Program-made: the position numbers and the translations under genes
In this document: positions 1,285-22,207 of the stretch, one piece after another
Layout of the letters: every line of letters starts with the position of its first letter
How positions within the stretch are numbered: the stretch's first letter is position 1
DNA from: a virus
Reading direction: 5' to 3' (one strand)
Virus record (IMG/VR): IMGVR_UViG_3300025664_000080
Span: 1 to 24,822 of that record
DNA: 24,822 nucleotides
The notes under the pieces: model-generated
What the model was told of the DNA's origin: nothing
What the model saw: only the letters and a program-made list of their open reading frames with translations
Databases searched by the model: none

Positions 1285-1311
1285 CCGGGAGAATGGAACC
1301 GAACCTTGGAA

Positions 1312-1392: not shown

Positions 1393-1408
1393 GGAAAGGC
1401 GTTGCCTC

Positions 1409-3885: not shown

Positions 3886-3887
3886 CT

Positions 3888-4869: not shown

Positions 4870-4910
4870 ACCGAGCCGGAACGCTTCCACAGCAGTTACG
4901 AATGGAGCGC

Positions 4911-6312: not shown

Positions 6313-6331
6313 AGGCCCGGAGCTTTGGTAA

Positions 6332-7794: not shown

Positions 7795-8756
7795 AACCGC
7801 TGGCCATTGATTTGTATTGCGGTCTTGGCGGATGGGCAGAAGGCCTTCTAGCAGAAGGATTCCGCGTAATCGGCTTCGACATCGAACGCCACGATTACGG
7901 AACCGGACCTTACCCGGCACAGCTTGTCATCCAGGACGTTCTTACGCTTCATGGCTCACAATTCAAAGACGCCGCGTTAATTGTCGCGAGTCCGCCGTGC
8001 CAGGCGTACAGCTATCGGGCAATGCCGTGGAAACGAGCGAAGGCTTTACCGCCGCCGGATAATTCACTTTTTGAAGCGTGTTTCAGAATTCAGCGGGAAG
8101 CGATTCGCGCCACCGGGAGAGAGTGTCCTGATTGTGATACCGGCTGGCCAGAGGGTCGCATGTGTCTGAATTGTCGCGGAGTCGGAGCCATTAACACCCG
8201 CTACATTCCGCTGATCGTTGAGAACGTCAGAGGAGCGCAGAAGTGGGTAGGGCGGGCGAAGTGGCATTTTGGAAGCTACTACCTTTGGGGAGATGTGCCA
8301 GCGTTGATGCCGATAACGTTGAGCGCGGCGAAGGTTTCAGGATCCCGGTTTGACGGGAGCGGACGCTCGTTTCAGACCGCAAGCGTGGAAGCACAGAAGC
8401 GCAATCCAGACGGTACCGAGCATGGACCAGGCTCATGGTTCAAGATCGCAGACTCTAAAAATCGGGGCGCTCGATCGGAAGCGGTGAAAGTCCCCGGCAT
8501 AAGCTTTAACGCTTCCAAGGCTGTGGGCTTCAACGTCACAGCAGCGCAGAGATACCGGGAAGGCGTGAAGAATGAACACGGCGGATCGTGGTACGGAAAT
8601 TATCAGGACGCGAAAGCCGCGGGCAAACTCGCAACCGGGCGCGGCTTCTCAAGTAAGCCCGACTCCCGCAAGGCTGCTTCCGCTCAAATCGCGAAGATTC
8701 CGTTTCCCCTTAGTCAACATATTGCGAGAACTTTCAAATATGGCGCATCCGTTTAA
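7791..8756 (+). CDS. C5-cytosine DNA methyltransferase
   Basis: 321 aa from GTG 7791 (GTGA overlap). KPLAIDLYCGLGGWAEGL at the N-terminus is motif I (SAM binding). SPPC at residues 67-70 carries the catalytic Cys70, VENV at 143-146 is motif VI, and PFPLSQHIARTF near the end fits the closing motif. It transfers methyl from SAM to cytosine C5 in DNA, presumably shielding phage DNA from host restriction. A Cys insertion between motifs IV and VI (C112, C115, C125, C128; CPDCDTGW...CLNCRGVG) probably binds zinc. The region after residue 170 is variable and would be the target-recognition part. No restriction partner is adjacent. Confidence 0.9.
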   Translation: MKPLAIDLYCGLGGWAEGLLAEGFRVIGFDIERHDYGTGPYPAQLVIQDVLTLHGSQFKDAALIVASPPCQAYSYRAMPWKRAKALPPPDNSLFEACFRIQREAIRATGRECPDCDTGWPEGRMCLNCRGVGAINTRYIPLIVENVRGAQKWVGRAKWHFGSYYLWGDVPALMPITLSAAKVSGSRFDGSGRSFQTASVEAQKRNPDGTEHGPGSWFKIADSKNRGARSEAVKVPGISFNASKAVGFNVTAAQRYREGVKNEHGGSWYGNYQDAKAAGKLATGRGFSSKPDSRKAASAQIAKIPFPLSQHIARTFKYGASV

Positions 8757-9060
8757 CCGAAACGAAATCGAATCCGCGACTCTCGGAGTCCTAACCCGCC
8801 TTGCGCTTTGGTTCGACTTAGAAAACCGCGGCACGGTTTTTACCGGCCATGACGTTTCCGGAATCCTCATCGGCGCATGGCACTCCTATGAGAGTTCCAA
8901 AGGCGATACCGCTGAAATCGCGTCCCAGCCTTTAGACTTGGCTCATGAAAAGAGCCGCACTGTACGCGAGGGTATCAACGACGGACAAGGGGCAAGATCC
9001 CGGGATGCAGTTCAAAGAAATGATGGAGGACTGCAAACGCCGAAAGTGGACGCCGGTTAA
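8740..9060 (+). CDS. Hypothetical protein, C-terminus overlaps recombinase
   Basis: 106 aa from ATG 8740, overlapping the end of the methyltransferase by 17 bases. Residues 1-70 look genuine (NEIESATLGVLTRLALWFDL, GTVFTGHDVSGILIGAWHSY). From about residue 70 the frame runs 116 bases into the recombinase gene and the composition becomes that of an out-of-frame read. The native stop was probably lost by a frameshift or by arrival of the recombinase gene near 8945. Function unknown. Confidence 0.55.
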   Translation: MAHPFNRNEIESATLGVLTRLALWFDLENRGTVFTGHDVSGILIGAWHSYESSKGDTAEIASQPLDLAHEKSRTVREGINDGQGARSRDAVQRNDGGLQTPKVDAG

Positions 9061-9553
9061 GTTTCAGGATGTGGGATGGAGCGGCAGCAAGGAACATCGG
9101 CCAGGATTCGATCAAATGATGAACGAAGTACGCCGCGGGAAGATAGACGTTGTAATGGTCTACAAGTTTGACCGCTTTGCCCGCTCACTGAAGCAATTGA
9201 TCCTCGCCCTGGAGGAGTTCAACGCGCGCAATGTTCAATTCATAAGCGTTCACGAACATCTCGACACAACAACCTCGATGGGGAGATTCGTTTTCCAGAT
9301 TATTGGCGCGATTGCTGAATTTGAGCGCGAGTTGACGCGGGAAAGAGTGCGCTCCGGAATTGCGCACGCCCGCGCCCAAGGAAAACATTTGGGAAGGCCG
9401 CGCGCGAACTTGAATACCGACTATATCCGCAAACGCCGCGCACAGGGCCATCGTTGGGACGTGATCGCAACCGAATTGCAGGTTTCTAAGGAGACTTGCC
9501 GCCGAGCGCTCGTAAACGCCACAAAAGGCCCTAAAAAATGCGCCCGTAAGTGA
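8945..9553 (+). CDS. Small serine recombinase (resolvase/invertase family)
   Basis: 202 aa. YARVST carries the nucleophile Ser11; VYKFDRFARSLKQL supplies the conserved Arg cluster; GRFVFQIIGAIAEFERELTRERVRSG is the dimer/long-helix region; the C-terminus (WDVIATELQVSKETCRRAL) is a helix-turn-helix. The length matches Tn3-type resolvases and DNA invertases rather than large phage integrases. Family knowledge: such enzymes resolve cointegrates or multimers, invert segments, or occasionally integrate elements. No inverted crossover pair was recognised in the window. No good RBS precedes the ATG, and its start lies within the previous frame. Stop overlaps the next gene (GTGA). Confidence 0.9.
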   Translation: MKRAALYARVSTTDKGQDPGMQFKEMMEDCKRRKWTPVKFQDVGWSGSKEHRPGFDQMMNEVRRGKIDVVMVYKFDRFARSLKQLILALEEFNARNVQFISVHEHLDTTTSMGRFVFQIIGAIAEFERELTRERVRSGIAHARAQGKHLGRPRANLNTDYIRKRRAQGHRWDVIATELQVSKETCRRALVNATKGPKKCARK

Positions 9554-9819
9554 TTGATTTCATGAATGCGATTTTTCGCACATTGAGAACGCGATTAACA
9601 TCTCTTTTTGAGGTTCTTAAGGAAATGAGCTTCTTCGTTGAAGAATTCAGGCTGCATCACAAATTCGACGGCGACACCTGCCCGAAGTGCGGCAATGCAA
9701 TTTGTGAGTGCCACGGCTGTTTAACTTGCGGCTTCAATCCCAAGCCCACCACAGCGCCGCTAACCCCGCAGCTCCAAGAAGGACCGGCGCCAACACCGTT
9801 GGGTCAAGAGAAAAGATAG
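9550..9819 (+). CDS. Small zinc-ribbon-like protein, last gene of rightward block
   Basis: 89 aa from GTG 9550 (GTGA overlap); ATG 9562 is an alternative start. A helical N-terminus (SLFEVLKEMSFFVEEFRL) leads to CPKCGNAICECHGCLTCG, six cysteines in about 18 residues, surely a metal site. The tail is Pro/Thr-rich. Its last 86 bases overlap, antisense, the 3' end of the leftward transglycosylase gene. Confidence 0.65.
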   Translation: MIDFMNAIFRTLRTRLTSLFEVLKEMSFFVEEFRLHHKFDGDTCPKCGNAICECHGCLTCGFNPKPTTAPLTPQLQEGPAPTPLGQEKR

Positions 9820-10267
9820 AAGAAGTGTCCAACGATGCGGAGGCGTCTCCGCTCGAATCCACTGGCGAAGCTACAGCAACGGCCGTGCTCACATTCTGCG
9901 CATTTGAATCGGCAATTCCGAGGACCGTAGAAACATAATTTAAGACCGTCACGGGAACTGACTTCCCCGAATCAACGTTTCCGCTTCCCCAGTTATAGGC
10001 AGCGAGGGCCGTATTCCAGTTCCCGTACTTCGCGTAGAGCTGTTTTAAATAAGAGACGCCAATACTGATGTTGCTGGAAAGATCTGATATTGGTTGGCCT
10101 GGGAAGCTCGAGGGCATCAACTGGAATAATCCGAGTTCGCCGGCCGCTCCTACCGCGTTTGGATTGAAGCTGGATTCGTGCTGCGCTACGGCAAGCGCGA
10201 TCGAGGATGGAACGCCTTGCGCGTTGGCTTCCTGGACGATCTGGGATTGGATGTCAGAAGAAGCCAT
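9734..10267 (-). CDS. Membrane-anchored lytic transglycosylase (SLT fold)
   Basis: 177 aa, starting 1 base after the stop of the upstream fibre gene. IALAVAQHESSFNPNA carries the catalytic Glu31; GELGLFQLMP (about 43-52) and NTALAAYNWGSGNV are the other signatures of soluble-lytic-transglycosylase domains, which cleave the glycan of peptidoglycan to 1,6-anhydro products. After a low-complexity stretch the protein ends in a hydrophobic helix (VLAPVLLGAAGLAALWWAW), so it is tail-anchored to a membrane with no signal peptide. That suits a virion-membrane or inner-membrane enzyme used in entry (compare PRD1 P7) better than a tail-tip enzyme, but either is possible. Last gene of the leftward block; overlaps the convergent gene by 86 bases. 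Confidence 0.85.
   Translation of the reverse strand: MASSDIQSQIVQEANAQGVPSSIALAVAQHESSFNPNAVGAAGELGLFQLMPSSFPGQPISDLSSNISIGVSYLKQLYAKYGNWNTALAAYNWGSGNVDSGKSVPVTVLNYVSTVLGIADSNAQNVSTAVAVASPVDSSGDASASLDTSSIFSLDPTVLAPVLLGAAGLAALWWAWD
10237..10257 (-). repeat. 21-bp near-repeat at transglycosylase start
   Basis: Matches 12476-12496 at 20 of 21 positions in the same orientation. Both copies encode DIQSQI just after the start codon of their gene (transglycosylase and 743-aa fibre). Confidence 0.7.
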
Positions 10268-10268
10268 T

Positions 10269-12500
10269 TCAATTCTCTGCTACCCACGCACCGTTTTTGC
10301 ATCCGTAGGCGGTTGAAAAGTTTCCGCTGTCAGTCCGAAGATACTGCCACCCGTTGCGCGCTGATGTGCAGAGACCGGATGCAGGAAGGCCGGTGTTTTT
10401 ATAGGTTCCGATATTCCCCTGAAAATCGAGGAATCCATTCGGAGGTTGCGTACCTACCACGATCGGGGTTGCGAAGTCGGTAGTAAAACCGCCTATAGAT
10501 GGAGTATCCCCGCCAAGAATGTAGTACGCTTCTGCTTCACTGCCGCCTGAATCTTGATCCCCTCCCCAGATAGAAATGTTTGTCGCATTGGTAGTGAAGC
10601 CAGCTTCAGTTTGTGCGCTCGCCGCTGCCACTCCATTGCCACGTGTGGAAACGTTTGCAACCGCTGTTTCGGGGCAGGCTATCGTTGCGCCGCTATAAGA
10701 ATTTGCCCAAAGATTCCCGCCTGTGATTGATGGAGCTACGCTCGGATCGCAGGCGCTTGTGATTGTGATTCCATCCCCAACATTGGTTGCCGTTTGCGTG
10801 GCTTGCGCGAATCCTGCCGTCCCGGTGAACGTTCCCGCCTGCTCGGAGTAAACGCCGGAGATGATTGCGTTTCGCCCGCCGTTTGAGCCGAGATCAAGAT
10901 AGATGCCGGAGTTATTGTTTTGACTGGCGAAGATGCCAGATGCCCAAAAGTCAGCGAGGCCCGAAGTGGTAGCCGCCGAACACGAGATATGGAATCCGTA
11001 CTGCTCGTTACCGAATGCTTGCGCCCATCCTGAGAAATGTGGCGAGGTTCCTTGGACACTGGTGAACGCAGCGGGGCAGGTAGCATCATACCCGCTCCCT
11101 AAATTCTGTTCGCTCAGGGTTCCGCGAACTTCCCATTGCAGCGTCTTATGAGTGGCGTCGGGAACAAAGTGGAATCCATCACCGTTGCCGAATTCAGCGA
11201 CCGAGCGGTCTATCTCGCTGTACGTCGTCCAGCCTAAATCGTAGTTGTGATAGTTGAAGTTCGCGTGAACGTTTTCAATCTTGGCCCGCGAAGCTCCGCC
11301 CAGAATTTGCAGTCCATCTCCACAGGTGCTCGATAACGCCCCGCCCGCGCACGTCGGACTGTTTGTGATGTGCTGGAAGGTAAGATTTTCAATCTGCGGT
11401 GCGCTCAACCCGCTGCCGCTCACGGTTAAATCGGGCGAGGAAGCAGTTGCGCATTGAAAGACCGCGCCGCCTTCGCTCAATCCCGTCAGCCGCACGTTAG
11501 CGACCGTCAGCGTCAAGCCGCACGCGGCATAAGTTCCACTGAATAGCAGCTGAGACCCGGAAGTCGCTGAGTTTAAGAAAGTCTGAATCGCCGACTGACT
11601 CGATCCCGGAGTGACGTAGATAATCGCCGCTGGTAACCCGCTTGAACTTCCGCAGGGATTTGAGGTTGTGGTCAGCAAGCCGAGCGTCCCAGCTTGTAAA
11701 CAGTTTCCCGGCGTGAGGGCTGAATCTAAAAGGGACACAAAAGTAGGACCGTTGTTGAACACAGCAAGCCCAGTTCCAGTGGGATTGGTTAACGTTCCAA
11801 AGAATTGCGCCGAAGTAGTAGAGGCAAACTGCGAAAGCGGATTGGCCGTGAGTCCGATACCTGCCGGAAGATCGGAGAGGCCAGCTACGGCGGTTACATT
11901 CAGAGCCGTGCGCTTGAGGAGTCCATTTGCGCCGGGATCCGCGAGTCCGCCGCCAAGATTTTGCTGGATTCCATTAACCCTGAAAATGATGGCGCTTGCC
12001 CCCGCTCCCGTTGGTTCGTTGTCTATGGTCGCGAGCAAGGAACCCGGATTCAATGTCGTGACGGTATAGCTCGACAAAGAATTCGACTGGACGTTTGCCG
12101 AACTGGTAGAGGTCGCAGTCAGGACCGCGCAGTTGCAGGCTCCGCTCGGCTGCGAGGGAGTCGTTGTCATCAAGAGATCGTAGGAGTTTGCGCCCAGAAC
12201 TTTGTTCCACGAAATGAAGCAGTAATTTCCGCTGGTTAAAGTTTGTGGAGCGTTGAAGCAGGGGAAGGGACCGGAGAGAGAAGAGTTTCCTACCGTGAAT
12301 TCCGAAGCCAGCCAAAAATAGTAAGTGCTCGAGCCAGGCTGTCCGACAACCGATGGAGCGCCCGCGACGTTGGGCGGTTGCGGAGTTGAGCTCAGTGGAA
12401 GATAGATAGTCTGCGCTGTGACGCTCTGTCCTAGTGCGCCCGCGCAAAGCAAAAGAACGACTCCAGCGACCTTAGCGATCTGAGATTGGATGTCAGTCAT
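10269..12500 (-). CDS. Secreted or virion fibre-like beta-helix protein
   Basis: 743 aa from ATG 12500, chosen because it places a Sec-type signal directly at the N-terminus (KVAGVVLLLCAGALGQSVTAQ, probable cleavage near residue 28). The first roughly 170 residues are paralogous to the start of the upstream 773-aa protein: both contain PSGACNCAV, QSNSL.SYTV and DNEP.GAG.S. The central region (about 290-600) is rich in short beta repeats with N/G turns, consistent with a right-handed beta-helix of the pectate-lyase type, as in phage depolymerases and fibres. The end (LCTSARNGWQYLRTDSGN) resembles fibre tips. Likely receptor binding or polysaccharide degradation; no catalytic residues were identified. 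Confidence 0.8.
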   Translation of the reverse strand: MTDIQSQIAKVAGVVLLLCAGALGQSVTAQTIYLPLSSTPQPPNVAGAPSVVGQPGSSTYYFWLASEFTVGNSSLSGPFPCFNAPQTLTSGNYCFISWNKVLGANSYDLLMTTTPSQPSGACNCAVLTATSTSSANVQSNSLSSYTVTTLNPGSLLATIDNEPTGAGASAIIFRVNGIQQNLGGGLADPGANGLLKRTALNVTAVAGLSDLPAGIGLTANPLSQFASTTSAQFFGTLTNPTGTGLAVFNNGPTFVSLLDSALTPGNCLQAGTLGLLTTTSNPCGSSSGLPAAIIYVTPGSSQSAIQTFLNSATSGSQLLFSGTYAACGLTLTVANVRLTGLSEGGAVFQCATASSPDLTVSGSGLSAPQIENLTFQHITNSPTCAGGALSSTCGDGLQILGGASRAKIENVHANFNYHNYDLGWTTYSEIDRSVAEFGNGDGFHFVPDATHKTLQWEVRGTLSEQNLGSGYDATCPAAFTSVQGTSPHFSGWAQAFGNEQYGFHISCSAATTSGLADFWASGIFASQNNNSGIYLDLGSNGGRNAIISGVYSEQAGTFTGTAGFAQATQTATNVGDGITITSACDPSVAPSITGGNLWANSYSGATIACPETAVANVSTRGNGVAAASAQTEAGFTTNATNISIWGGDQDSGGSEAEAYYILGGDTPSIGGFTTDFATPIVVGTQPPNGFLDFQGNIGTYKNTGLPASGLCTSARNGWQYLRTDSGNFSTAYGCKNGAWVAEN
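12476..12496 (-). repeat. 21-bp near-repeat at 743-aa fibre start
   Basis: Partner of 10237-10257 with one mismatch. It covers codons for DIQSQI immediately after the start ATG, suggesting that one gene start was copied from the other. Confidence 0.7.
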
Positions 12501-12508
12501 TAGCGTGT

Positions 12509-14830
12509 CTAGTGTCCGCTGCAGGAGAGCCAAAGAGTGTCTGTGCCCGTTCCTGCGAGGGTAACGGTAGTAGCTGACGCTGGGACCGCCTTACAGGCGT
12601 TCACGGCGGTTTGATCCGTGCAGGTGCAACCGAAAGTTGAAGAACTGGTGAAAGTGAAAGAGTTCGCAAAAGTGTGGGTCGCGGCACCGGCGGTCAAAGC
12701 TTGCGTATTGGTATAAATCTTTTCGGCGGTGGTAAGCGTGCCAGCTTCGAACGCGCGCGGATGATTCGACAGCGTAAGATTTGCGACGGCTGTAGTGCTC
12801 GAAATCGAAAAGGGCGCAGTTCCCGTCGCCAAAGTAGAAACGAACTGCCCGGAAAGGGTGGCGCTATTATCATTTTTCAGCAGCAACCCGCCGAACAAGA
12901 AGGCATTTCCACCGGTAGAGGTTTCGGAATAGAGCGGGTCGTAACAGGCGTTCTGATTTTGCAGGAAGGTGCTCGAAAGAACGTGATCGTTGACCGCGTT
13001 ATGCCCGGTCCCACCGGTGATGGTGCCGCAAAGTCTAAGGCCATTCAGCAGCGCCGGCGAACTTTCGCTGACGTCGAAGGCGTAAACAGTGGACCCGGCG
13101 GGCTCACGAAGGAAGTGGTAGTTGCTTATGGCAACGCCTTGCACGTCTCGCAGCTTCCCGAGCGCCGTAGTGGTATCTGACGAATTGCTCTCCACGTAAA
13201 GAGAGGGAATCGTGATTTCTGATAGTTCGTGGCCATTGCCGTTAAATTCAAAAACATATTGCCCGACTCCGGGATGGCCCCAATCCGGACGACCCCCGAA
13301 GTCCACATTCTGACCGCAGCTTGCAAAGGCGCAGTCAATAACCAAGTCCCGCGCTCCCGCGGCATGGCTGCCATCAAGCAATAGATCCGGCAGATGTACG
13401 GAGTTGAAGCCCACTACGGAATTAAGGTCATGGATATGAAGCAAAATCGTAGTGGCGGATGTTGTCGATCCGCCGACCGTAAAGGAAGCGAAAGTCGAAT
13501 CGAAGACGCCTTGCAAATCAACCAGCGAGTCAGTAACCGTGCTGCTTGCGGCCGTGTTCCCGGTAAATTCCAACCCCTGGTCGAAGATGTGTGTGGCAAG
13601 CCCCTGTGCGGTATCGGGCAGAGTCACGAGCAGGGCGGTAGGCGCGGCACCAGAACCGAGCGTTATCTGAGTCATGTTTGTTCCCTGGCCGTCACCCTTA
13701 ATGGTGGTGCCGGAATACTGGCTAAAGCAGGGAGTGCCGCTCATGGTGCAAATGTAATCCACGCCCGTGCCAAGCAAGAGCGTAACTGCGGTAGGAGTCA
13801 CATTGCCGATCGCTACGGTCGCAGCCACCGTCTGATTTCCCACTAAACCCCGTGCATCGCATATTCCACCGGGACCATTAAGCTCCGCCGAGGTAATGCA
13901 GGTATTCAATTTCACGTCGGCAGTCAAACCTGAAAGGCGGTCCGCCAAGAAAACATTATTTAATTTCGTAAAGGAGCCGGTATTCGGAGTGGTGCTTCCA
14001 ATCGGACCCGGCGCCAAAAAAAATGCGGTTGTCGCCAGTTTAGTTGTGCTGTCGCCTGCGGTCGGTGTGGGAGCTGATGGCGCGCCGGTTAAAGCTGGCG
14101 AAGCGAGCGGTGCGGCGCCCGTAATCTGCCCGACAGAATAATCTCCGGACGTGGCAACTACCGCTCCCGTTCTCCCAAACACGCTTGTCGGCGCACCGGT
14201 GATCTGGCCAATCGAATAATCCCCGCTCTGCCCGGTGACCGCGCCGGTCCTTCCGAATACAGTGCTAATTGGCGAACTGCCTCCTCCGATGCTCAAGTCC
14301 GCGACCTGCACGCCATTCTGCCGATAGATCAAATGAGATTGCCCAGCGCCAACGGGTTCGTTGTCCAAGGTGATATTGAGGGCGTTCACGTTGACGGGTG
14401 AGACGGTGTAAGAATTCAGACTGTTCGATTGATCGTTGATCACCCCAGAAGTTATTCCGGTCGCTACGGCGCAATTGCACGCGCCAGATGGTGCGAATGG
14501 AATGGAGGTGCGGAGAACATCCACACTGACGATGCCGAGCGGGTAGTTTGGGGAAACCTGATTATAGTTCGTGCCGGATAGCGTACTGGCCGCACCTAAA
14601 ACGTTTCCCACGAAGTAAGGCGATCCCGCGCCAATCAGGTAGTTGGGAACTGTCCAGTAGAAGTACGTTGCGTTGCCGGGATTGCCGATGCGAGTGACGG
14701 TTGCGCTTGCGGGCTGAAGATTCTGTGATATCGGGAAAGTTATTTGCTGGGTAATGACGGGGGCTTGCGCCCACAGAAACACCGGAGCTAAAAGGATTTG
14801 CGCGAAAATGAAGCGGAGAAGTTTGTTCAT
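12509..14830 (-). CDS. Secreted or virion fibre-like protein with GRTGAV repeats
   Basis: 773 aa from ATG 14830 with AGGGATC about 5 bases upstream. It begins with a Sec signal (MNKLLRFIFAQILLAPVFLWAQ). Then comes the N-terminal domain shared with the 743-aa protein, and two copies of VFGRTGAV...SGDYS.GQITGA (about 190-245), a motif commonly seen in phage tail fibres. A long beta-rich, probably beta-helical domain follows, and the tail is Cys-containing (FGCTCTDQTA...TLWLSCSGH) like many fibre C-termini. Many Cys residues (GACNC, CTC) fit an oxidising, exported environment. Role inferred as receptor binding or surface-polysaccharide recognition. Next gene starts 8 bases after its stop. Confidence 0.8.
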   Translation of the reverse strand: MNKLLRFIFAQILLAPVFLWAQAPVITQQITFPISQNLQPASATVTRIGNPGNATYFYWTVPNYLIGAGSPYFVGNVLGAASTLSGTNYNQVSPNYPLGIVSVDVLRTSIPFAPSGACNCAVATGITSGVINDQSNSLNSYTVSPVNVNALNITLDNEPVGAGQSHLIYRQNGVQVADLSIGGGSSPISTVFGRTGAVTGQSGDYSIGQITGAPTSVFGRTGAVVATSGDYSVGQITGAAPLASPALTGAPSAPTPTAGDSTTKLATTAFFLAPGPIGSTTPNTGSFTKLNNVFLADRLSGLTADVKLNTCITSAELNGPGGICDARGLVGNQTVAATVAIGNVTPTAVTLLLGTGVDYICTMSGTPCFSQYSGTTIKGDGQGTNMTQITLGSGAAPTALLVTLPDTAQGLATHIFDQGLEFTGNTAASSTVTDSLVDLQGVFDSTFASFTVGGSTTSATTILLHIHDLNSVVGFNSVHLPDLLLDGSHAAGARDLVIDCAFASCGQNVDFGGRPDWGHPGVGQYVFEFNGNGHELSEITIPSLYVESNSSDTTTALGKLRDVQGVAISNYHFLREPAGSTVYAFDVSESSPALLNGLRLCGTITGGTGHNAVNDHVLSSTFLQNQNACYDPLYSETSTGGNAFLFGGLLLKNDNSATLSGQFVSTLATGTAPFSISSTTAVANLTLSNHPRAFEAGTLTTAEKIYTNTQALTAGAATHTFANSFTFTSSSTFGCTCTDQTAVNACKAVPASATTVTLAGTGTDTLWLSCSGH

Positions 14831-14901
14831 CTGATCCCTAGAAAATACTGCACGGCCAGCTTTATCCCTTCGAAGCCCACTACCAGCAAGCCGCTCGTTA
14901 C

Positions 14902-15318
14902 TCAGAGTTTGAGTTGCGCTTTCGATAACTTTGCCGTGAGAATTGAGATTTGCGCGGCCGCTTCGGATTGCGATTTGCGATATTTGTCGTAGTAACTGTT
15001 TACGTCTTTCTTGAGGTCCGCTATCTCGTCGCGGTATTTTTGCAGCATGGCTTGAAGGACGATTTCGGGTAGGTCTGCCATAGGTTGTGGTCCAAGCTGT
15101 GGTCCATCCGGCCACGGCGCGAGGTCGTGAAACTGTGAACTTTCGGTCGCGATCTTGGCGGAAACGACCGCAACAATCAGAGACTCGCTTGCCAGCCTCT
15201 CTTGCTCCTGCTCGGGAAGTTCCATGTAGCGCTCGAGTACTTCCTCGGCAAAGGCCATGTACCAGTTAATCGAGAACGGCGACAAATCATTTTCTAAGTG
15301 TTCGCCGCCGTCCACCAT
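14902..15318 (-). CDS. Coiled-coil hypothetical protein
   Basis: 138 aa from ATG 15318; no Shine-Dalgarno is visible before it. A helical N-terminal half (WYMAFAEEVLERYMELPEQE) is followed by a Pro-rich link and a long coiled coil to the end (QKYRDEIADLKKDVNSYYDK...ILTAKLSKAQ). It sits between two fibre-like genes, so a chaperone or trimerisation helper is possible but unproven. A 26-codon ORF with AGGAAAG just before its ATG (15294-15374) overlaps this start and could be a coupling leader. The 71 bases after its stop hold only the RBS of the next gene. Confidence 0.65.
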   Translation of the reverse strand: MVDGGEHLENDLSPFSINWYMAFAEEVLERYMELPEQEQERLASESLIVAVVSAKIATESSQFHDLAPWPDGPQLGPQPMADLPEIVLQAMLQKYRDEIADLKKDVNSYYDKYRKSQSEAAAQISILTAKLSKAQLKL

Positions 15319-15386
15319 GCGGATGACAATACAGCGAAATGTGTATCTCGCCTTAGTCTGTGTACAGTTCGCATCTTTCCTGATTC

Positions 15387-15398
15387 TTTCCTAGGAAA
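15387..15398. promoter_or_regulatory. Perfect 12-bp palindrome in intergenic gap
   Basis: TTTCCTAGGAAA is a perfect dyad in the 88-base gap (15319-15406) between the 266-aa and 138-aa genes, the second-longest intergenic gap of the leftward structural unit. It could be an operator or chance. No convincing -35/-10 pair was found beside it. Confidence 0.3.
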
Positions 15399-15406
15399 CG
15401 AACAAA

Positions 15407-16207
15407 TTAGAACTGCGCGTAGGTGACGCTTCCTTGCACTGTGGTCGTGATCGCGCCCGCAGCGAGGCAAACGTTTTGACCGAATGGAGCCTTCACGAGT
15501 GAGCCGAAGGGCCCACCTGCAAAAAATAGAAGCGGCGTATTCGCACTTGTGGCCAATGGTCCCCAGCGATTAAAGCCGAACGTCGAACAGGTAGCGCCGC
15601 CGCCCGTCGAGAGTGCAATCGTCCCGTTCCCCGGCGCTGCTACGAAGCTAAGAGCGATAGAGCAGACGTAAATATTGGTGCCCGCAACTCCGGAGATTAT
15701 GTTGGTCGTTGTGCCGGTGGCCACGCTGAAAATAGCCTGCTGATCGCATACCGCTGGGGTTGTGGCGCCCAGGCTATTGATCGCTGGCGGAAAGACTGAA
15801 ATGGTTCCCTGAGTTCCGGAGTACCAGATGCTTACGGTTCCTCCGCTGATAGAAAGCACGTTGATCGCGGGATAGGTGAAGTAATTTCCGACTTGGATAG
15901 TGTTGCAATTGTTCCCGTTCAATTGCGCGAGCGGTGGACCGTAAACCGGAGAGATCTGGGTGTAGTGGGAAGAAACGTTGTCGGGACTTTCTTCCACGAT
16001 GAGCTGAAGCGTGGTCGCTGAACTGCAATAAGTGAAAAGGTGTGCGCCCGCACCAATCTGATTTGCTGCGGGCACCACGACGCGGCCGGTCGCGCTTGAG
16101 TTATTCAGCAATTGCACGGTGGTCGTCAGATTGTTGTTAGTTCCCTGCCCGTGCGCGAGGCCTGAGAAAAAAAGAGCTGCGACAATCAATAATGCTTTGA
16201 TCTTCAT
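15407..16207 (-). CDS. Secreted or virion beta-rich fibre-like protein
   Basis: 266 aa from ATG 16207 (ATGA overlap with the glucosaminidase). The N-terminus is a textbook Sec signal (MKIKALLIVAALFFSGLAHGQ, cleavage probable after AHG or Q). The mature part is Thr/Ser/Gly-rich, beta-prone and contains spaced cysteines (YCSS, NNCNT, VCDQQ, VCSIA, TCSTF, NVCLA) that could pair in the periplasm. It ends TVQGSVTYAQF. Phage fibre-like by composition; not recognised by family. Translational coupling to a lysis enzyme is notable for an exported protein. Confidence 0.75.
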   Translation of the reverse strand: MKIKALLIVAALFFSGLAHGQGTNNNLTTTVQLLNNSSATGRVVVPAANQIGAGAHLFTYCSSATTLQLIVEESPDNVSSHYTQISPVYGPPLAQLNGNNCNTIQVGNYFTYPAINVLSISGGTVSIWYSGTQGTISVFPPAINSLGATTPAVCDQQAIFSVATGTTTNIISGVAGTNIYVCSIALSFVAAPGNGTIALSTGGGATCSTFGFNRWGPLATSANTPLLFFAGGPFGSLVKAPFGQNVCLAAGAITTTVQGSVTYAQF

Positions 16208-16677
16208 GGATGCTCCACTGCTGGCGGTTTTCCGTATCCGGCTTCGCGATAAATGCTCAAGACTTTCAGGGCGCGATCGGGATCTGTGGACCAGGTCTTT
16301 GAAACTTCTTTTATGTACGTCTCTGCGTCGGGAGCTCGCAGCGCGGCCGCGTAATGCGGGTAGTCGTGACAGAGACGTTGCAGTGTGGCGGCGCGATCGC
16401 TAAAACAGAGCGCGGTTGATGGGTAGTGAATCCATTTCGCGTCTTGCGGTATCCACTTTCCGCCGATGACTTCCTTGCTGGGGAGAATCGCGGTTCCGTA
16501 TTCCGGGTGAAGGTGCTGCTTCATCCCGAATAGATTGTTGTCCTGGATGGCGAGAAGAGAACGGCCGTAAGAGGATTCGAGCGCTGCCTCGCACGCGGCC
16601 ATTTTTGGGAATGGATGCTCTGCAACTTCCGCAGAGATAGCGCAGTCGTGAATGAATTTGAATTGCTCCGGCGTCAA
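16204..16677 (-). CDS. Glucosaminidase-type (GH73/FlgJ-like) endolysin
   Basis: 157 aa from TTG 16677; GGGAGGAG lies 6-7 bases upstream and the product begins TPEQFKFIH, as such enzymes usually do. Longer in-frame starts would be read from the previous gene's sequence. AACEAALESSYGRS carries the probable catalytic Glu34, and DNNLFGMK (46-53) is the classic NNLFG signature of beta-N-acetylglucosaminidase domains that cut peptidoglycan. No signal peptide or membrane helix, so it would need a holin or be virion-borne. Stop overlaps the 266-aa gene (ATGA). Confidence 0.85.
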   Translation of the reverse strand: MTPEQFKFIHDCAISAEVAEHPFPKMAACEAALESSYGRSLLAIQDNNLFGMKQHLHPEYGTAILPSKEVIGGKWIPQDAKWIHYPSTALCFSDRAATLQRLCHDYPHYAAALRAPDAETYIKEVSKTWSTDPDRALKVLSIYREAGYGKPPAVEHP

Positions 16678-16700
16678 GCGCTTCTCCTCCCTACAGCTTT

Positions 16701-16862
16701 TCAGGCCGATTCCGCTATTACTTCCCGAATCGCCTTGCAGATGTCGCACGGACATCCCTCTTCCCTATGTTTCAGGTGCAGAGCACCGAAGAGTCCGAAC
16801 TTCGCCTCGATGAATTGCTTGAGGTCCGCTTTGGTTTCGGGTTTAAGTGTGGGTTCGCTCAT
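16701..16862 (-). CDS. Tiny Cys-containing protein
   Basis: 53 aa, starting at the ATG that overlaps the stop of the 121-aa gene (ATGA). Helix LKQFIEAKFGLFGALHLKHR is followed by CPCDICKAIREV, a His/Cys cluster that may bind metal. Not recognised. Short enough to be missed by gene callers, but the phased overlap and codon pattern support it. Confidence 0.65.
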   Translation of the reverse strand: MSEPTLKPETKADLKQFIEAKFGLFGALHLKHREEGCPCDICKAIREVIAESA

Positions 16863-17224
16863 TTCGCGCTAGGAGCGGGGGCGGCATTCAGCACCGTCAC
16901 CACGGAATTGATGTAGGAAGTTACGGCAGCGGTATCGCTCGGCCTGCCCGCATCAGTCAAACCTTGAGCGATAACTGGTTCGGAAATTTGCAGGACGTCG
17001 GCGAGTTTTTGCGCGCCGGTCCCGTTTTGCTTGCCGAGAGCCGCGTACTTCTGTTCGGCGAGAACTACCGCCGAAACGGTTGTGTTGAATAACGAGCCCA
17101 GGCTGGGAGCGAAAATACTCACGGCGGTTTCGCCCATTGTCGCGGCGTAGGGCAGGATGGCGTTCAAACCTTTTACGAAGTCCTTGCCGATTGCTTCAAG
17201 AAAGGAGATTGCTTTGTTGCTCAT
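16859..17224 (-). CDS. Hypothetical Ala-rich protein with amphipathic helices
   Basis: 121 aa from ATG 17224, with CAGGAG about 8 bases upstream (strong RBS). It has moderately hydrophobic helices (LNAILPYAATMGETAVSIFA, LGSLFNTTVSAVVLAEQKYA), a conserved-looking GTGAQKLADVLQ segment and a C-terminal helix. It may be a small virion-membrane-associated or lysis protein given its neighbours; no direct proof. Confidence 0.7.
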   Translation of the reverse strand: MSNKAISFLEAIGKDFVKGLNAILPYAATMGETAVSIFAPSLGSLFNTTVSAVVLAEQKYAALGKQNGTGAQKLADVLQISEPVIAQGLTDAGRPSDTAAVTSYINSVVTVLNAAPAPSAK

Positions 17225-17248
17225 CTGTTTTTCTCCTGTTGATTGTTG

Positions 17249-17659
17249 TTAATTTCCTGTCGCCGCTTTCGGCGTGTCGCCGGTCGCGCTAGTCGTAGCG
17301 GGTGACGGCGGAATAATCTGCCCGAGTTCCACACGGAATGCGGGAAAGAATCCGAGGATCTGATAAATGACCGTGCAGGAAAGCAATCCGGCCATGCCGG
17401 CGAGGCCCCAGGTAGTTGCCTTGAGTCCGGCCGCGAGCAACGGCGATTCAATTTTCCCGATGACGTAAAGCTGAATCGGAACTTGGAGGCAGAGACAAAG
17501 GAAGGCGCGCGCCAGCAAGTTTTTGGAGTTGAGCAGAATCCACAGCCCCACGCCGCGAAAATCGGCAGTGAGTCCGTTCGAAGTTGAGCGAACAGAATTT
17601 GGCGCCTGTAGCATTACGAAAACCAGCCAGCCAAGCCAGTACATGAAGAGGTCAACCAT
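17249..17659 (-). CDS. Integral membrane protein, about three spans
   Basis: 136 aa from ATG 17659, 11 bases after the previous stop with AAAGGGA as RBS. Upstream in-frame starts would overlap the preceding gene without need. Hydrophobic spans lie at about 5-20 (MYWLGWLVFVML), 45-70 (NLLARAFLCLCLQVPIQLYVIG) and 75-105 (GLAGMAGLLSCTVIYQILGF). The tail is Pro/Ala/Thr-rich. Size and topology would suit a holin, next to a glucosaminidase, or a viral membrane protein; the sequence does not choose. Confidence 0.75.
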   Translation of the reverse strand: MVDLFMYWLGWLVFVMLQAPNSVRSTSNGLTADFRGVGLWILLNSKNLLARAFLCLCLQVPIQLYVIGKIESPLLAAGLKATTWGLAGMAGLLSCTVIYQILGFFPAFRVELGQIIPPSPATTSATGDTPKAATGN

Positions 17660-17670
17660 GGTTCCCTTTC

Positions 17671-18279
17671 CTAACTTTGCAAGCTTGGGGGCAGAATCGC
17701 TTCGGATAAAGGCAACGTCCATCCGTGAAAGCGCGCTGCGGTTGTGCCTGGCGGTGGAATCTTGCCAGCCGGTACCTGCACAGTCACGTTGATGACGTCA
17801 CCTTCGATTAAGAGAATTTCAGTGTCATTCGGCGCGGCGTAGGTTCCTACCTGCGACGTGAGGTTATTCAAACCTTTGACGCCTGCGCCGTTTACTACTA
17901 CTTGCCAGAGCACGTTGCCGGTTCCGTCCGGAGGATTTCCGCCGATGTGCACGATCGCGATCTTGTTGATAACCGCAATGGCTCCCTGTGGCGCGGTGTA
18001 CGTCAGAACTACGACTGCGGCCGCTCCCGCTGCCGGATATGCCGTGAAAAGATTCGGCGTTTGAATGAAAGCCTTCGAATCAGAGGGCGGCAAAAACATG
18101 GTTAGGTTCTGATTCAAGTACGACGGCTGATTTGCCGCCACGCTGGCCAGATTGGACGCTGCGAGCTTTTGATAGTCCGACCAGGTGCGATCGTTGAAGT
18201 CTGGCAAAGAAGATGACGCATCGCCCAGACGCCCGAGATGGTGACCGCGCAGCCGACGTTCTAGTTGCTGAAGGTTCAC
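17671..18279 (-). CDS. Putative beta-sandwich virion protein (fourth of cluster)
   Basis: 202 aa from GTG 18279, overlapping the previous stop (GTGA); the longer in-frame read is out-of-frame sequence of the gene before. A basic helical N-terminus (LQQLERRLRGHHLGRLG) and linker lead to a beta-rich domain from about residue 85: VVVLTYTAPQGAIAVINKIA, VLWQVVVNG, EILLIEGDVINVTVQVP, and a closing RFHGWTLP. The I..GD.I.V.V... arrangement ahead of a final strand recurs in the three preceding proteins. Jelly-roll-type fold is inferred from strand pattern only. Confidence 0.7.
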   Translation of the reverse strand: MNLQQLERRLRGHHLGRLGDASSSLPDFNDRTWSDYQKLAASNLASVAANQPSYLNQNLTMFLPPSDSKAFIQTPNLFTAYPAAGAAAVVVLTYTAPQGAIAVINKIAIVHIGGNPPDGTGNVLWQVVVNGAGVKGLNNLTSQVGTYAAPNDTEILLIEGDVINVTVQVPAGKIPPPGTTAARFHGWTLPLSEAILPPSLQS

Positions 18280-18824
18280 TTGTTTCCTTGGGGCGACATC
18301 TGCCCAGCGAATAACACGACCTGAATCGAGGTCACGGCTGGCGCGACCGGGCTGCCGAGATTCTTTACCTGGCACTCGATCGAGTCTCCCGGTAAAAACA
18401 AATGCGGCTGGCGAAGGATCGCCGGATTTCCGAGTTTCCCCAGAACTTCGGCGTTGAAAACGTCGCGATTGAAAAAGCGATACTGGCTTCCGTTGTGAGT
18501 ATGGAAAATATTCAGATTGAAGCCGAGATTCGAATTCCCCGGGCCGGTGTTGTCATTCGATACGCCTGCCATGCCCCAAAGGAAAGTAGGAACCATGATC
18601 TGAACGGTCTGGTTCTGCGTGTCGAGGGCGGCGAGGCCTGGCGCTGGCCCGAACAGTCCCCAGCCGAAGCCGATTGCCTGGAAGTCGAGGTCTTGGGGCA
18701 GATTTAAAAGCTTGGGGAGATAGTGGCGGTTGCGCAATTTGCGCTGAGGGAAAAAAAGCGGGGTTATCCGGTAATCGGCAAACTGCTGGGTTGCCAAAGC
18801 AGCGATGTCTTTAATAGATAGCAC
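18276..18824 (-). CDS. Putative beta-sandwich virion protein (third of cluster)
   Basis: 182 aa from ATG 18824, 20 bases after the previous stop; GGGAG lies upstream. Residues 1-30 are helical (IKDIAALATQQFADYRI), then FFPQRKLRNRHYLPKLL. A beta-rich core follows: QTVQIMVPTFLWGM, FNLNIFHTHNGSQYRFF, PHLFLPGDSIECQVKNL and IQVVLFAGQM. Strand spacing and the LPGDSI.C.V / IQVVLFAG ending suggest a single jelly roll like small capsid or coat proteins; no homolog is recognised with certainty. Confidence 0.7.
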   Translation of the reverse strand: MLSIKDIAALATQQFADYRITPLFFPQRKLRNRHYLPKLLNLPQDLDFQAIGFGWGLFGPAPGLAALDTQNQTVQIMVPTFLWGMAGVSNDNTGPGNSNLGFNLNIFHTHNGSQYRFFNRDVFNAEVLGKLGNPAILRQPHLFLPGDSIECQVKNLGSPVAPAVTSIQVVLFAGQMSPQGNK

Positions 18825-18844
18825 AAGCGTTTGATTGCTCCCTG

Positions 18845-19315
18845 TTATTGCGCACTCTCGCCCAGGTTGCGGCCGATGAAGGCCAAAGCCACAGTGTTGC
18901 CCGCGCCGCTGAGCTCGTTGAGCGTGACCTGAATCGAGCTTCTTTGCGCGAAGGTATAGGGGGAGAGTAAGGGGAACGGGTTTTGCCCATTGCCCAGCAT
19001 TTCGGATGAATGAATCGCGATATTAGAGAACTGGCGCGAGGTGCCGAGATCGGTGATCAGGAACGAGAACGCGCCGGTAGATTCGCCGGTCAGTTCGAGC
19101 CATTCAAAATCCCAATTGACAATGGTGACGACGGCTTGAAGATTCGCTTGGTTTGCTCCGAGAACTACGGGCGCCATGCGATAGGTGTAGAAGAGGCCGG
19201 AGCGTGGGTCTACGCCGCTCCCGTCACAGACCGGACACTTCTGTATACCCAAAGTTCCTTGTATCGCTTTCGCGCCTTTGCAGTAGGTGCACGGTTTTTT
19301 TTGGGTAGTCGCCAC
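18845..19315 (-). CDS. Zinc-knuckle plus beta-sandwich putative virion protein (second of cluster)
   Basis: 156 aa from GTG 19315, preferred over GTG 19321 because GAAGG lies 5 bases before it. The first 40 residues hold a DnaJ-type Cys pair set (CTYCKGAKAIQG...KCPVCDGSG), ending DPRSG. The remainder is a beta-rich domain: AVVTIVNWDFEWLELTG, AFSFLITDL, QFSNIAIHS, PYTFAQRSSIQVTLNELSG, NTVALAFIGRNL. The ending mirrors the neighbours (S-I-x-V...h-h-h-x-G). Fusion of a zinc knuckle to such a domain is unusual. Confidence 0.7.
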   Translation of the reverse strand: MATTQKKPCTYCKGAKAIQGTLGIQKCPVCDGSGVDPRSGLFYTYRMAPVVLGANQANLQAVVTIVNWDFEWLELTGESTGAFSFLITDLGTSRQFSNIAIHSSEMLGNGQNPFPLLSPYTFAQRSSIQVTLNELSGAGNTVALAFIGRNLGESAQ

Positions 19316-19389
19316 TGCCACCTTCGCGTTTCAAAGTTAAGCGGGAAGGCCTTGGAGGCTCTTCCCGCCGAGGGGTACAACCATGCAGC

Positions 19390-20115
19390 TTAGGAAACGC
19401 CGCGTTCCAAATTGCCGTCGAGGTAGACGGTGATTACAGTCCCGACGCCGGGAGGGTTGGTGGAATTCGCGGTCAAGTTGAAAGCGGTTTCCGGATTCAG
19501 GCTGACGGAGAATTGCTCCGTCTCTTCGATCGTGATCGGGATATCGAGCAATCCCGCATCCGAGCTCAGCGGTCCGTTCGAGGTGGAAAATACCGGAGCG
19601 GAACCGGCCGGCGGAACTCCGACGTTTGCAGCCGCGTCCACTTTCCAGCCGCGGCCTGCGGGGAACATGGACAGCGGACCTTGCTGATAAACCTTGGATC
19701 CGATGGCAAGCTGGAAGCTCACATTCTGGAGAAGGTTTTGCAAGTCTGCGGGAATCGTGTTGTTCGAGATGTGGGCGCAGATTTTGTAAATCGTGAAACG
19801 CTGCGGAGTGGGAAGCGATCCGGCCTGCGACAGATTGGTTTGCGCCAAAGTCTTCCCAGCCTGGCCAAGCGGCGATTGAAACAAAATCGTTCGCGTGAAA
19901 GCCGCGGACTGGGCGAAGGACACCTGATCGTACAAGGAGTACGAAAGCGACTGAACCACGCCGCCGATGTTGGGATTGTGGGCGCGTCGAAGATTATCAA
20001 ACCCCATGCGCGCGAAAAGCGATTCGCGATGCGCCTGTTTCCGCGAAAGTTGACGGGATACGAATCGTGATGCTTGGCGCTCTTGGCGTTCTTCACTGCG
20101 GGCTGCTGTATTCAT
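19390..20115 (-). CDS. Putative major beta-sandwich virion protein (first of cluster)
   Basis: 241 aa from ATG 20115; GAAGG lies rather far (12 bases) upstream. A very basic, Arg/Gln-rich N-terminus (about 1-40) precedes a beta-rich body: QSLSYSLYDQVSFAQ, RFTIYKICAHISNN, VSFQLAIGSKVYQQGPLSMF, IPITIEETEQFSVSLN and a final VGTVITVYLDGNLERGV. Strand order, size and the preceding hairpin-regulated leader make it my best candidate for a jelly-roll major capsid protein. A basic arm reaching the genome would fit. No family assignment is certain, and it shows no HK97-fold features. Confidence 0.7.
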   Translation of the reverse strand: MNTAARSEERQERQASRFVSRQLSRKQAHRESLFARMGFDNLRRAHNPNIGGVVQSLSYSLYDQVSFAQSAAFTRTILFQSPLGQAGKTLAQTNLSQAGSLPTPQRFTIYKICAHISNNTIPADLQNLLQNVSFQLAIGSKVYQQGPLSMFPAGRGWKVDAAANVGVPPAGSAPVFSTSNGPLSSDAGLLDIPITIEETEQFSVSLNPETAFNLTANSTNPPGVGTVITVYLDGNLERGVS

Positions 20116-20136
20116 AGCGGTTTCACACCTTCTTTG

Positions 20137-20175
20137 AAAGTTTTCTCACTCCCCGCATGGCGGGGTTAAAACTTT
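20137..20175 (-). promoter_or_regulatory. Nested hairpin upstream of putative capsid gene
   Basis: Outer arms AAAGTTTT (20137-20144) and AAAACTTT (20168-20175) enclose a perfect inner stem CCCCGC/GCGGGG (20151-20156 and 20160-20165) with a 3-base loop. It begins 14 bases after the stop of the membrane-protein gene and ends 21 bases before the capsid-candidate ATG. There is no U-run, so it looks like an RNA-stability, processing or attenuation element rather than a simple terminator. Confidence 0.55.
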
Positions 20176-20189
20176 TGCCTCAATGCCTC

Positions 20190-20846
20190 TTAGCGGCTGT
20201 ACGGACTCTTAAAAGCCCTTCCGGTTGTCGCTGCACCACTTGCCACAGCGCCCGCCTGGGCTGCACTAGGAGCCGCTATCGGCGTTCCTGCTGGGGCCGC
20301 AAGCGCATAACTTCCGCCCGCTGTCGTAGTAGGCAGAGCATAATTTCTCGCGCTGTAGTAGCCGAGATAATCGCCGTTGCCAAGACCGGACATCGAGACG
20401 TTGCCAGAAACCTGTTCTTGCCAGACGCGCTTGATCAGCGCTCCGAAGCCGCCAGCGATGACGCCTTCCGCGACCTTTGGCCCAGAAAACTTGTTTGCCG
20501 CCCAGGCTAGAACCAAGGTTGCGACGGCATCGCCGGCATAGCCCATGAATCCAGCGTTCGAAGTGTTCAAAAGCATCTGGGTTAAGTACCCGGAGCCAAT
20601 CGCGCCGCCGAAGGCACCGAGGCCGAGTTTCAAAATGTCAGAGGATCCCATCCCTATCGGGTTGCGGCTGCGCGAGTGACGGCGCCGCATACTGAAAGGA
20701 TTCTTGGCGCGACGACTGCGACGATGACGGGGAAATGCGGAATTGCGTGCGCGTCTGTTGCGAGACTTTTTTCTTCGTGGATTCGCCATAAGATAGATCA
20801 CTCCATTGCGCTTGCGATGGGATTTTCTCGGGTTCACAAGTTTCAT
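20190..20846 (-). CDS. Basic DNA-binding-like membrane protein
   Basis: 218 aa from ATG 20846; alternatives are ATG 20864 and ATG 20789 (199 aa, GGAGTGAT upstream). I favour an upstream start because NPRKSHRKRNG there repeats the style of NPRRKKSRNRRARN that follows. About the first 80 residues are Arg/Lys/Ser/Asn-rich like a nucleic-acid-condensing arm. Next come two hydrophobic, Gly-rich helices (LKLGLGAFGGAIGSGYLTQM, GYAGDAVATLVLAWAANKFS), then an Ala/Pro/Gly-rich tail. Such a protein could tie the viral genome to a membrane; that role is inferred. First gene after the terminator at 20881-20922. Confidence 0.7.
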   Translation of the reverse strand: MKLVNPRKSHRKRNGVIYLMANPRRKKSRNRRARNSAFPRHRRSRRAKNPFSMRRRHSRSRNPIGMGSSDILKLGLGAFGGAIGSGYLTQMLLNTSNAGFMGYAGDAVATLVLAWAANKFSGPKVAEGVIAGGFGALIKRVWQEQVSGNVSMSGLGNGDYLGYYSARNYALPTTTAGGSYALAAPAGTPIAAPSAAQAGAVASGAATTGRAFKSPYSR

Positions 20847-21009: not shown

Positions 21010-21243
21010 TCAGTTACCAGCGGTAGCAGGAAGAGGACCGTGAGCGAGAACGATAGCTTTGTCGCAGGCTTCCGCTTGATCTCTGAGTGCGCGCCCTATG
21101 GTGCGAGCGTTCTTCGAATCCAGCGTAAAGGCCATGGCCAGCAGTCCGGATTCAACGATCAGTTGCACGGCAAAGGTTCCGTTCGGAAGCTGGATCTTGT
21201 TTACCTGGACGGGAGTGGCGATTGCGGGATTGGGAGTGCTCAT
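21010..21243 (-). CDS. Small hypothetical protein, last of upstream unit
   Basis: 77 aa from ATG 21243 (ATGA overlap with the zinc-knuckle gene). Beta strands PVQVNKIQLPNGTFAVQLIVE precede FTLDSKNARTIGRALRDQAEACDKA, a helix. Small phage proteins with this strand-then-helix plan are common but uncharacterised. Followed by the terminator at 20881-20922. Confidence 0.65.
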   Translation of the reverse strand: MSTPNPAIATPVQVNKIQLPNGTFAVQLIVESGLLAMAFTLDSKNARTIGRALRDQAEACDKAIVLAHGPLPATAGN

Positions 21244-22049
21244 CGGCTGGCCCGCTTCGCGATTCCGCCCATTAGAAAAGCCTGATGCGCTTTTTCATCC
21301 ACCATTAAACACATGCCATCCCCGTACACGTCCGTCATCACGTCGAAGATGTAGGGAGTGACGGCGCGGTTTGCTCCGGGGAGCGGACGAACTGAGAAAC
21401 GGATGATTGGACCTAACGCCTGCATGCCGCCGTATTCTCCACAGGCGAATTCGCGCGGATCGTGAATCGTTTCTTTCGACTGGAATTTCCGCCCATGGCA
21501 ATCGGGACAGAGGCCTTTGCTGGAATCGTAGCTTCCGGCTGCTAGGCCAGTAGCTTTATTTCCGAGGCCACGACAGGAAGAGCATGGAGCTTCGCCGGTG
21601 CCTTTGCAGGAAACGCACTCGCGAGGTCCATTCGGAAGATGCTGCGTTCCGGAGCCGCCGCAGTACTGCGCTTCGCAAATCTTTTCGCCTTTGCCGTTAC
21701 ACACGTCACAGACCGCGAGACATGATTCGCAGAAATCCTCAGAGATTTCCACATGCGGCGGTATCCCTTCCCAGGGAGAGACGATTACTAACTGATTCAT
21801 GGTGCGGGCTTGAGCTATGGCGGGACCTGATTTCCGGAAGTCAATTAACGGAGCTTTGGCGTTCGGGTCGCGGGGCTGAATGTTTACGAAACTAAGATGA
21901 CCGAGAACGTCGAATTCGCCTTTGCGGATTACGTCGCGCATCGGCTGCAATGTTTTATTGAGCCAGGCGAGGTCGCGCTTATCAACAAGAACGGGTTCTG
22001 GCTTGGGTTGTGACTTTGCGCGGGGAGCGGGTTTGGCGTGAACTGGCAA
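21240..22049 (-). CDS. Protein with four DnaJ-type CxxCxG zinc knuckles
   Basis: 269 aa if it starts at TTG 22049, three bases after the previous stop. The frame is open upstream, but that part overlaps the 51-aa gene and reads as out-of-frame sequence. After a Pro/Lys-rich start and a helical segment (LNKTLQPMRDVIRKGEFDV), the core carries CDVCNGKG, CVSCKGTG, CSSCRGLG and CPDCHGRK, as in the cysteine-rich domain of DnaJ, with no J domain (no HPD). The C-terminal part is beta/alpha (IIRFSVRPLPG, YIFDVMTDVYGDGMCLMVD). Family knowledge: such knuckles hold two zinc ions and bind unfolded peptides. A virion-assembly chaperone is a reasonable guess. Confidence 0.75.
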   Translation of the reverse strand: MPVHAKPAPRAKSQPKPEPVLVDKRDLAWLNKTLQPMRDVIRKGEFDVLGHLSFVNIQPRDPNAKAPLIDFRKSGPAIAQARTMNQLVIVSPWEGIPPHVEISEDFCESCLAVCDVCNGKGEKICEAQYCGGSGTQHLPNGPRECVSCKGTGEAPCSSCRGLGNKATGLAAGSYDSSKGLCPDCHGRKFQSKETIHDPREFACGEYGGMQALGPIIRFSVRPLPGANRAVTPYIFDVMTDVYGDGMCLMVDEKAHQAFLMGGIAKRASR

Positions 22050-22051
22050 AG

Positions 22052-22207
22052 CTACTTCTTTATCCCGAGCGCTTTTTGCATCTGGTCGCGCTGCTCTTTC
22101 GCCATCTCGATTTGAGTACGCTGGTTTTGGACGTGCTCTTTGAAGCAATCCCAGAGGCCTTGGAGAATGGCTTTGGTTTCGGGTGCGAAGTCAATGGTGT
22201 AGGTCAT
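22052..22207 (-). CDS. Tiny helical protein
   Basis: 51 aa from ATG 22207, overlapping the previous stop (ATGA). Helical throughout, with a heptad-like second half (ETKAILQGLWDCFKEHVQ, QIEMAKEQRDQMQKALG) suggesting a short coiled coil. Not recognised; overlooked easily because a longer frame runs across it. Confidence 0.6.
   Translation of the reverse strand: MTYTIDFAPETKAILQGLWDCFKEHVQNQRTQIEMAKEQRDQMQKALGIKK

Follow-up and report, generated by a model that had tools for sequence, protein, structure and literature searches.

Does the long run of minus-strand genes in this viral contig encode the particle of a tailless, membrane-containing phage, as a preliminary description of the DNA proposed, and, if so, to which known viruses is that particle related? 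The window, by which we mean the whole stretch of DNA analysed, is an entire linear IMG/VR record of 24,822 bp; it lacks a terminal repeat and is therefore probably a fragment of a larger genome. Its plus strand carries early-type genes (1-9819), and all predicted genes from 9734 to the right end lie on the minus strand (Table 1). The conserved part of this minus-strand block extends to 23727 and, judging by its relatives, would continue past the window end. The ORFs named in the preliminary description are all present where it placed them; for two of them it chose starts at 19315 and 18279, which remain as possible as those of the longest ORFs, 18845-19321 and 17671-18375, listed here.

Table 1 Features of the window discussed in the text (G001, G002 and G003, G260 and G481 denote related contigs and genomes; SSIP-1, Salisaeta icosahedral phage 1)
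Feature	Coordinates	Strand	Remarks
Early-type genes	1..9819	+	SSB-like protein, HerA/DUF87 ATPase, DUF5131-type protein, methylase-like protein, serine resolvase
HerA/FtsK-type (DUF87) ATPase	1951..3702 (longer start 1846)	+	Early region; PF01935 E 2e-10, HTH_IclR
Serine resolvase/invertase	8945..9553	+	Block edge; SSIP-1 gp3 counterpart (phmmer E 1.5e-25 to gp3)
SLT transglycosylase with C-terminal hydrophobic anchor	9734..10267	-	PF01464 E 3e-23; SSIP-1 gp54 counterpart
Putative receptor-binding fibre 2	10269..12533	-	Paralogue of fibre 1
Putative receptor-binding fibre 1	12509..15115	-	True start probably internal, ahead of signal-type segment
Secreted-type beta-rich protein, fibre-associated	15407..16207	-	27-31% identity in G001/G002/G003; N-terminal signal peptide by eye
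Glucosaminidase	16204..16755	-	PF01832 E 1.5e-13
Three-span membrane protein	17249..17722	-	Hydrophobic segments read from sequence; G002 homologue in module; near endolysin gene
Fourth beta-rich protein	17671..18375	-	202 aa from 18279; 53-60% identity in G001/G002/G003, also in G260 and G481
Third beta-rich protein	18276..18824	-	Paralogue of 18845 product; capsomer-partner or penton candidate
Second beta-rich capsid-type protein	18845..19321	-	41-46% identity in G001/G002/G003; SSIP-1 gp47 best match, E 1.5e-3
Candidate major capsid protein	19390..20115	-	Predicted single jelly-roll-like sandwich; 241-aa model
Basic, Arg-rich two-helix membrane protein	20190..20846	-	SSIP-1 structural gp44 counterpart; HMM family in 12 loci
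Cysteine-rich conserved module protein	21240..22148	-	DnaJ-like CxxC repeats; 34-35% identity in G001/G002; also in G003 provirus
P22684, conserved module protein	22684..23727	-	HNH-like N-terminal part and conserved C-terminal domain

Just three of the ten window proteins scanned matched Pfam (transglycosylase, glucosaminidase and ATPase), and no Pfam family was found for the four beta-rich ORFs or the fibre-like proteins. A DNA search, and searches of phage records with the beta-rich products as protein queries, returned chance-level matches at most, and sequence searches of the PDB with the same four proteins returned chance-level matches only. On the evidence of conservation, the ORFs of the block are real genes, since most of the block is conserved, in order and at about 30-55% identity, in two IMG/VR contigs and an Acidobacteriales MAG.

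The two contigs, G001 and G002 (37 kb each), were identified by scanning viral contigs with the candidate capsid protein, to which their counterparts show 43-45% identity, and both are collinear with the greater part of the block (22684 gene to transglycosylase); each also has a homologue of the serine resolvase. Beyond the equivalent of the window end, G001 encodes a run of small proteins, mostly with a C-terminal membrane segment, together with a transglutaminase-like protein. The family of the fourth beta-rich protein led to the MAG, G003, in which the same order is found within about 29 kb and the capsid protein is 46% identical to that of the window; from this relative we infer, without its having been shown, that the window phage has an acidobacterial host. 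Profile searches of overlapping samples of Acidobacteriota (396, 399 and 93 genomes) found the capsid family in 13 genomes, and homology combined with gene order now links the block to 15 other loci plus SSIP-1. Nearly all loci share one order: the transglutaminase-like protein, tail-anchored proteins, P22684, the basic membrane protein, a protein of the candidate capsid type and one or two of the 18845 type. Two groups are exceptions: in that of G193 no 18845-type protein could be recognised, and in that of J569/N524/O531 no basic protein. The transglutaminase-like protein, itself tail-anchored, is present in 14 related loci, and the capsid gene adjoins the basic-protein gene in all loci where both were found. 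P22684, whose HMM family is found in the majority of loci, where it lies upstream of the basic-protein gene, was assigned to the module by position and is given no function.

Several relatives have recognisable ends. The G193 element lies between 45-bp repeats of the 3' end of a tRNA-Arg gene (151713 and 172971; 21.3 kb) and the G519 element, on a contig of 4.86 Mb, between 45-bp tRNA-like repeats (20.6 kb). The 34,655-bp contig of G481 has an exact terminal repeat of 169 bp, and we read it as a complete, circular genome. Integration at tRNA-type sites and a circular form are both seen among the relatives. A search for att sites around the G003 provirus found no repeat. The G003 (contig C42 175129) and G260 (contig C10 103100) proviruses both lie near truB, which suggests a common integration neighbourhood.

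The isolated phage to which the block can be tied is SSIP-1, which has a 44-kb genome and a tailless 100-nm particle (T=49) containing an internal membrane; its type of jelly roll was left open (PMC6260650), and two major capsid types are described for it (PMC6356626). It is unclassified in the NCBI taxonomy, and its gp34, 44, 45, 46 and 47 are annotated as structural. When the transglutaminase-like protein of G001 was compared with 50,697 phage records, it matched SSIP-1 gp34 only (two records of one genome, E 5e-7). Six family HMMs, built without SSIP-1, were searched against the SSIP-1 proteins with reversed decoys as a control, and the syntenic protein ranked first in six out of six cases, with E-values of 1.2e-39 for gp34, 5e-12 for gp54, 3.6e-4 for gp44 (best decoy 0.07), 1.5e-3 for gp47, 5e-3 for gp33 and 0.62 for gp45; across families, the best reversed-decoy E-values ranged from 0.03 to 1.2. 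By these comparisons the proposed links can be graded as strong for gp34 and gp54, weak for gp44, gp47 and gp33, and resting on rank alone for gp45, whose score is meaningless by itself, so that only its rank and its position in the row count. By sequence, the link of the candidate capsid protein to gp45/gp46 is not significant, neither in this HMM search nor in a profile comparison (hhalign E 0.0032, probability 10%), and this counts against the reading favoured here.

Within the window, the order seen in SSIP-1 is met as the basic membrane protein followed by capsid-type proteins (gp44-gp47), and a counterpart of gp34 would lie past position 24,822, outside the window. The lineage as a whole resembles SSIP-1 in the succession of gp33, gp34, basic membrane gp44, capsid-type gp45-47, membrane gp49 and anchored transglycosylase gp54, in its serine recombinase (gp3) and in having circular DNA of similar size. 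It differs in host phylum, in capsid proteins that share almost no sequence with those of SSIP-1, in the integrated state of several Acidobacteriota members, and in showing no counterpart of the giant structural protein gp43 or of the RecA-like ATPase gp40 (a gp40-type P-loop protein was not found in the window, G001 or G002). Used as queries, SSIP-1 gp45 and the G193-type family yielded no new viral contigs. In the open-access literature, which leaves most subscription journals uncovered, we found no description of SSIP-1 relatives or of tailless membrane phages of Acidobacteriota.

How might such a capsid be built? A first model of the candidate capsid protein, made from three sequences, was poor (pLDDT 49) and was superseded after 12 more homologues had been added; the AF2 model from 15 homologues has a mean pLDDT of 77, with a core above 90, and is predicted to form a single beta sandwich with some eight main strands and, in front of it, a basic helical N-terminus. 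Foldseek searches of the PDB placed two capsid chains of Sulfolobus polyhedral virus 1 (SPV1; 6oj0, E 1.5e-3) at the top and satellite panicum mosaic virus next (E 3.4e-3). Many further capsids of the single jelly-roll type follow, P23-77 VP16/VP17 coming in at rank 46; some phage tail proteins are also in the list. Since the best match reaches only E 1.5e-3 and a TM of about 0.4, the jelly-roll reading rests on topology and on the nature of the matches: for this model the E-values are weak, but the type of match, to viral jelly-roll capsids, is consistent. At the level of sequence, the family had no significant match among the 50,697 phage records and none in a scan of genome contigs, and no link to solved capsid proteins was found. 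A further fold match, in BFVD, is to I1ZBH9 (211 aa), which from its length is possibly an SSIP-1 protein.

The second and third beta-rich products are, by profile comparison, paralogues (hhalign E 2.9e-5, within one shared HMM family), and the fourth is a probable vertex or spike-base protein. An N-terminal CxxC...CxxC zinc-ribbon-like segment precedes the capsid-type part of the 18845-19321 product and is kept in relatives. We infer that the candidate major capsid protein would form the capsid lattice, while the paralogous pair would supply partner capsomers or pentons.

For the neighbouring proteins, too, everything between the assembly of the capsid and entry is inference, drawn from the gene content and from tailless membrane phages already known, PRD1 among them. 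The basic two-helix protein would tether the genome to the lipid layer, which the many tail-anchored proteins of the relatives, including the transglutaminase-like one, would fill. The family of the basic protein is rich in basic-NP motifs (four in the window protein against 0.6 expected, two in SSIP-1 gp44). The two paralogous fibres have in common an N-terminal domain of ~190 aa, 41-48% identical to fibres of G001, G002 and G003, and would bind the host. Signal-peptide-like N-termini ending near ...AQ are seen in both fibres and in the 15407-16207 product, and in most of their relatives; such N-termini on fibres are unexpected if the particle is put together in the cytoplasm, and count against the reading favoured here. 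The transglycosylase does combine its Pfam match with a hydrophobic C-terminus, as first reported, and, with PRD1 P7 as the analogue, would open the peptidoglycan at entry. No support was found for counting the glucosaminidase and the three-span protein as parts of the virion. In the same part of the block, relatives encode an M15 peptidase (G001) and, by eye, a lysozyme-like (G002) and an M15-like protein (G003); because lytic-type genes lie there, the two proteins fit a lysis cassette, with the glucosaminidase as its probable endolysin and the three-span protein as its probable holin, which together would lyse the cell.

A terminase large subunit, a portal or a tape-measure gene on the same genome would have refuted a tailless reading. 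We therefore looked beyond the window, where the absence of tail and HK97-like genes had first been noted, by scanning pooled ORFs against Pfam and PHROGs for the contigs G001 and G481 and the proviruses of G003 and G260, and against Pfam only for G002, G519, G177 and G193. Among the matches listed there was no portal, HK97 capsid or tape measure in these relatives, and none of the three refuting genes in the circular relative G481; the sole terminase name among the matches listed, phrog_2666 ('terminase large subunit'), was matched by HerA-type ATPases that are also DUF87 matches.

Because the block is homologous and syntenic with SSIP-1 virion genes, because its candidate capsid protein has a single jelly-roll-like predicted fold and because no refuting gene was seen among the matches listed for the circular relative, we hold with considerable confidence that it is the module for morphogenesis and lysis of an SSIP-1 relative that infects Acidobacteriota, a temperate phage whose tailless, icosahedral particle has an internal membrane. 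The earlier suggestion of a new lineage larger than most of its kind fits both the synteny with a 44-kb isolate and the predicted fold. Membrane and capsid remain inferences, as particles have never been seen for any of these elements.

Could the window instead hold a P23-77/SH1-type virus in the strict sense (Helvetiavirae), with two single jelly-roll major capsid proteins and the FtsK/HerA-type ATPase at 1951-3702 as its packaging motor? Matsushitaviridae and Sphaerolipoviridae have a conserved packaging ATPase of this type and genomes of up to about 30 kb. Like P23-77, IN93 and the Sphaerolipoviridae, which have a membrane but no tail, more than one capsid gene and capsid proteins of the vertical single jelly-roll type, the window has a predicted, though not solved, single jelly roll, with VP16/VP17 among its matches, and a paralogous pair of further beta-rich proteins, and its ATPase is faintly similar (E 8e-3) to the packaging ATPase of an archaeal icosahedral virus. 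The ATPase, however, lies on the early strand, has winged-helix-like repeats at its C-terminus and is not conserved with the capsid genes: outside the window, G003 encodes a relative (E 8e-21) and G481 a divergent analogue, and no P-loop protein of the HerA kind was found in G001, G002, G260 or G193, although the capsid block is intact there. Nor was any sequence link of the candidate capsid protein to solved capsid proteins found. We regard this alternative as unlikely, if the most durable of those considered. Since it is encoded in the early region and was not found in most relatives, the ATPase is a poor candidate for the packaging motor first proposed; that role, unsupported by conservation, is probably not its own in this lineage, and its actual role is uncertain.

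PRD1 (Tectiviridae) has in common with the window an anchored transglycosylase and small membrane proteins, but the capsid proteins of PRD1, PM2 (Corticoviridae) and FLiP are double jelly rolls, a test that the single sandwich of the 241-aa model does not meet. SPV1 (Portogloboviridae), the best solved fold match, is an archaeal virus and is similar at the level of fold only.

Returning to the SSIP-1-like phage, no packaging motor has been identified, and the entry of the genome into the capsid is unexplained. We offer, tentatively and as somewhat less than an even bet, the proposal that these Acidobacteriota proviruses form, with the orphan SSIP-1, a tailless membrane phage lineage of family level or higher that has no conserved packaging ATPase, and in which either a motor of the host or an unrecognised one would package the genome, or the genome would be enclosed during particle formation. 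The missing ATPase could also be taken as a sign that these are domesticated or defective proviruses, or satellites, with capsid-like genes and no infectious particles, the more so as the relatives come mostly from bacterial genomes and none is known as an isolate; we consider this very improbable, given the open frames kept across divergent members, the lysis genes, integrases and fibres, and the occurrence of independent metagenomic contigs (G001 and L008, from two samples, are identical in their shared genes). The block might, finally, hold the baseplate, spike and lysis genes of a tailed phage, with head and tail genes that have diverged too far or lie off the contig. In favour of this, neither the window nor either of the 37-kb contigs is complete, the transglycosylase also matches PHROGs named lytic tail proteins, and some phage tail proteins do figure in the Foldseek list. 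The idea can nevertheless be dismissed almost entirely: the block lies within the 34.5-kb terminal-repeat contig and within compact att-bounded proviruses (20.6 and 21.3 kb), the matches listed for the relatives scanned include neither a portal nor a tape measure, and the synteny of the block is with a tailless isolate.

On the favoured reading as an SSIP-1 relative, the apparent orphan belongs to a widespread lineage whose gene block recurs as proviruses in many Acidobacteriota genomes, and SSIP-1 gains both a set of relatives and a testable single jelly-roll capsid model. Tailless membrane phages would thereby be extended to the Acidobacteriota, abundant soil bacteria, with candidate lysogens for the induction of particles, and the question is raised of how genomes of 20-40 kb are packaged without a conserved motor.

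The capsid family itself is varied. G002 encodes a second, divergent member (3890-4525; L006) upstream of its gp33-like gene; the idea that this was a false family member was dropped, as it looks like a true divergent paralogue. In L031, L033 and L034 (G569, G524 and G531), the capsid-family proteins carry an insertion of ~100 residues, have 460-aa partners and form a separate branch.
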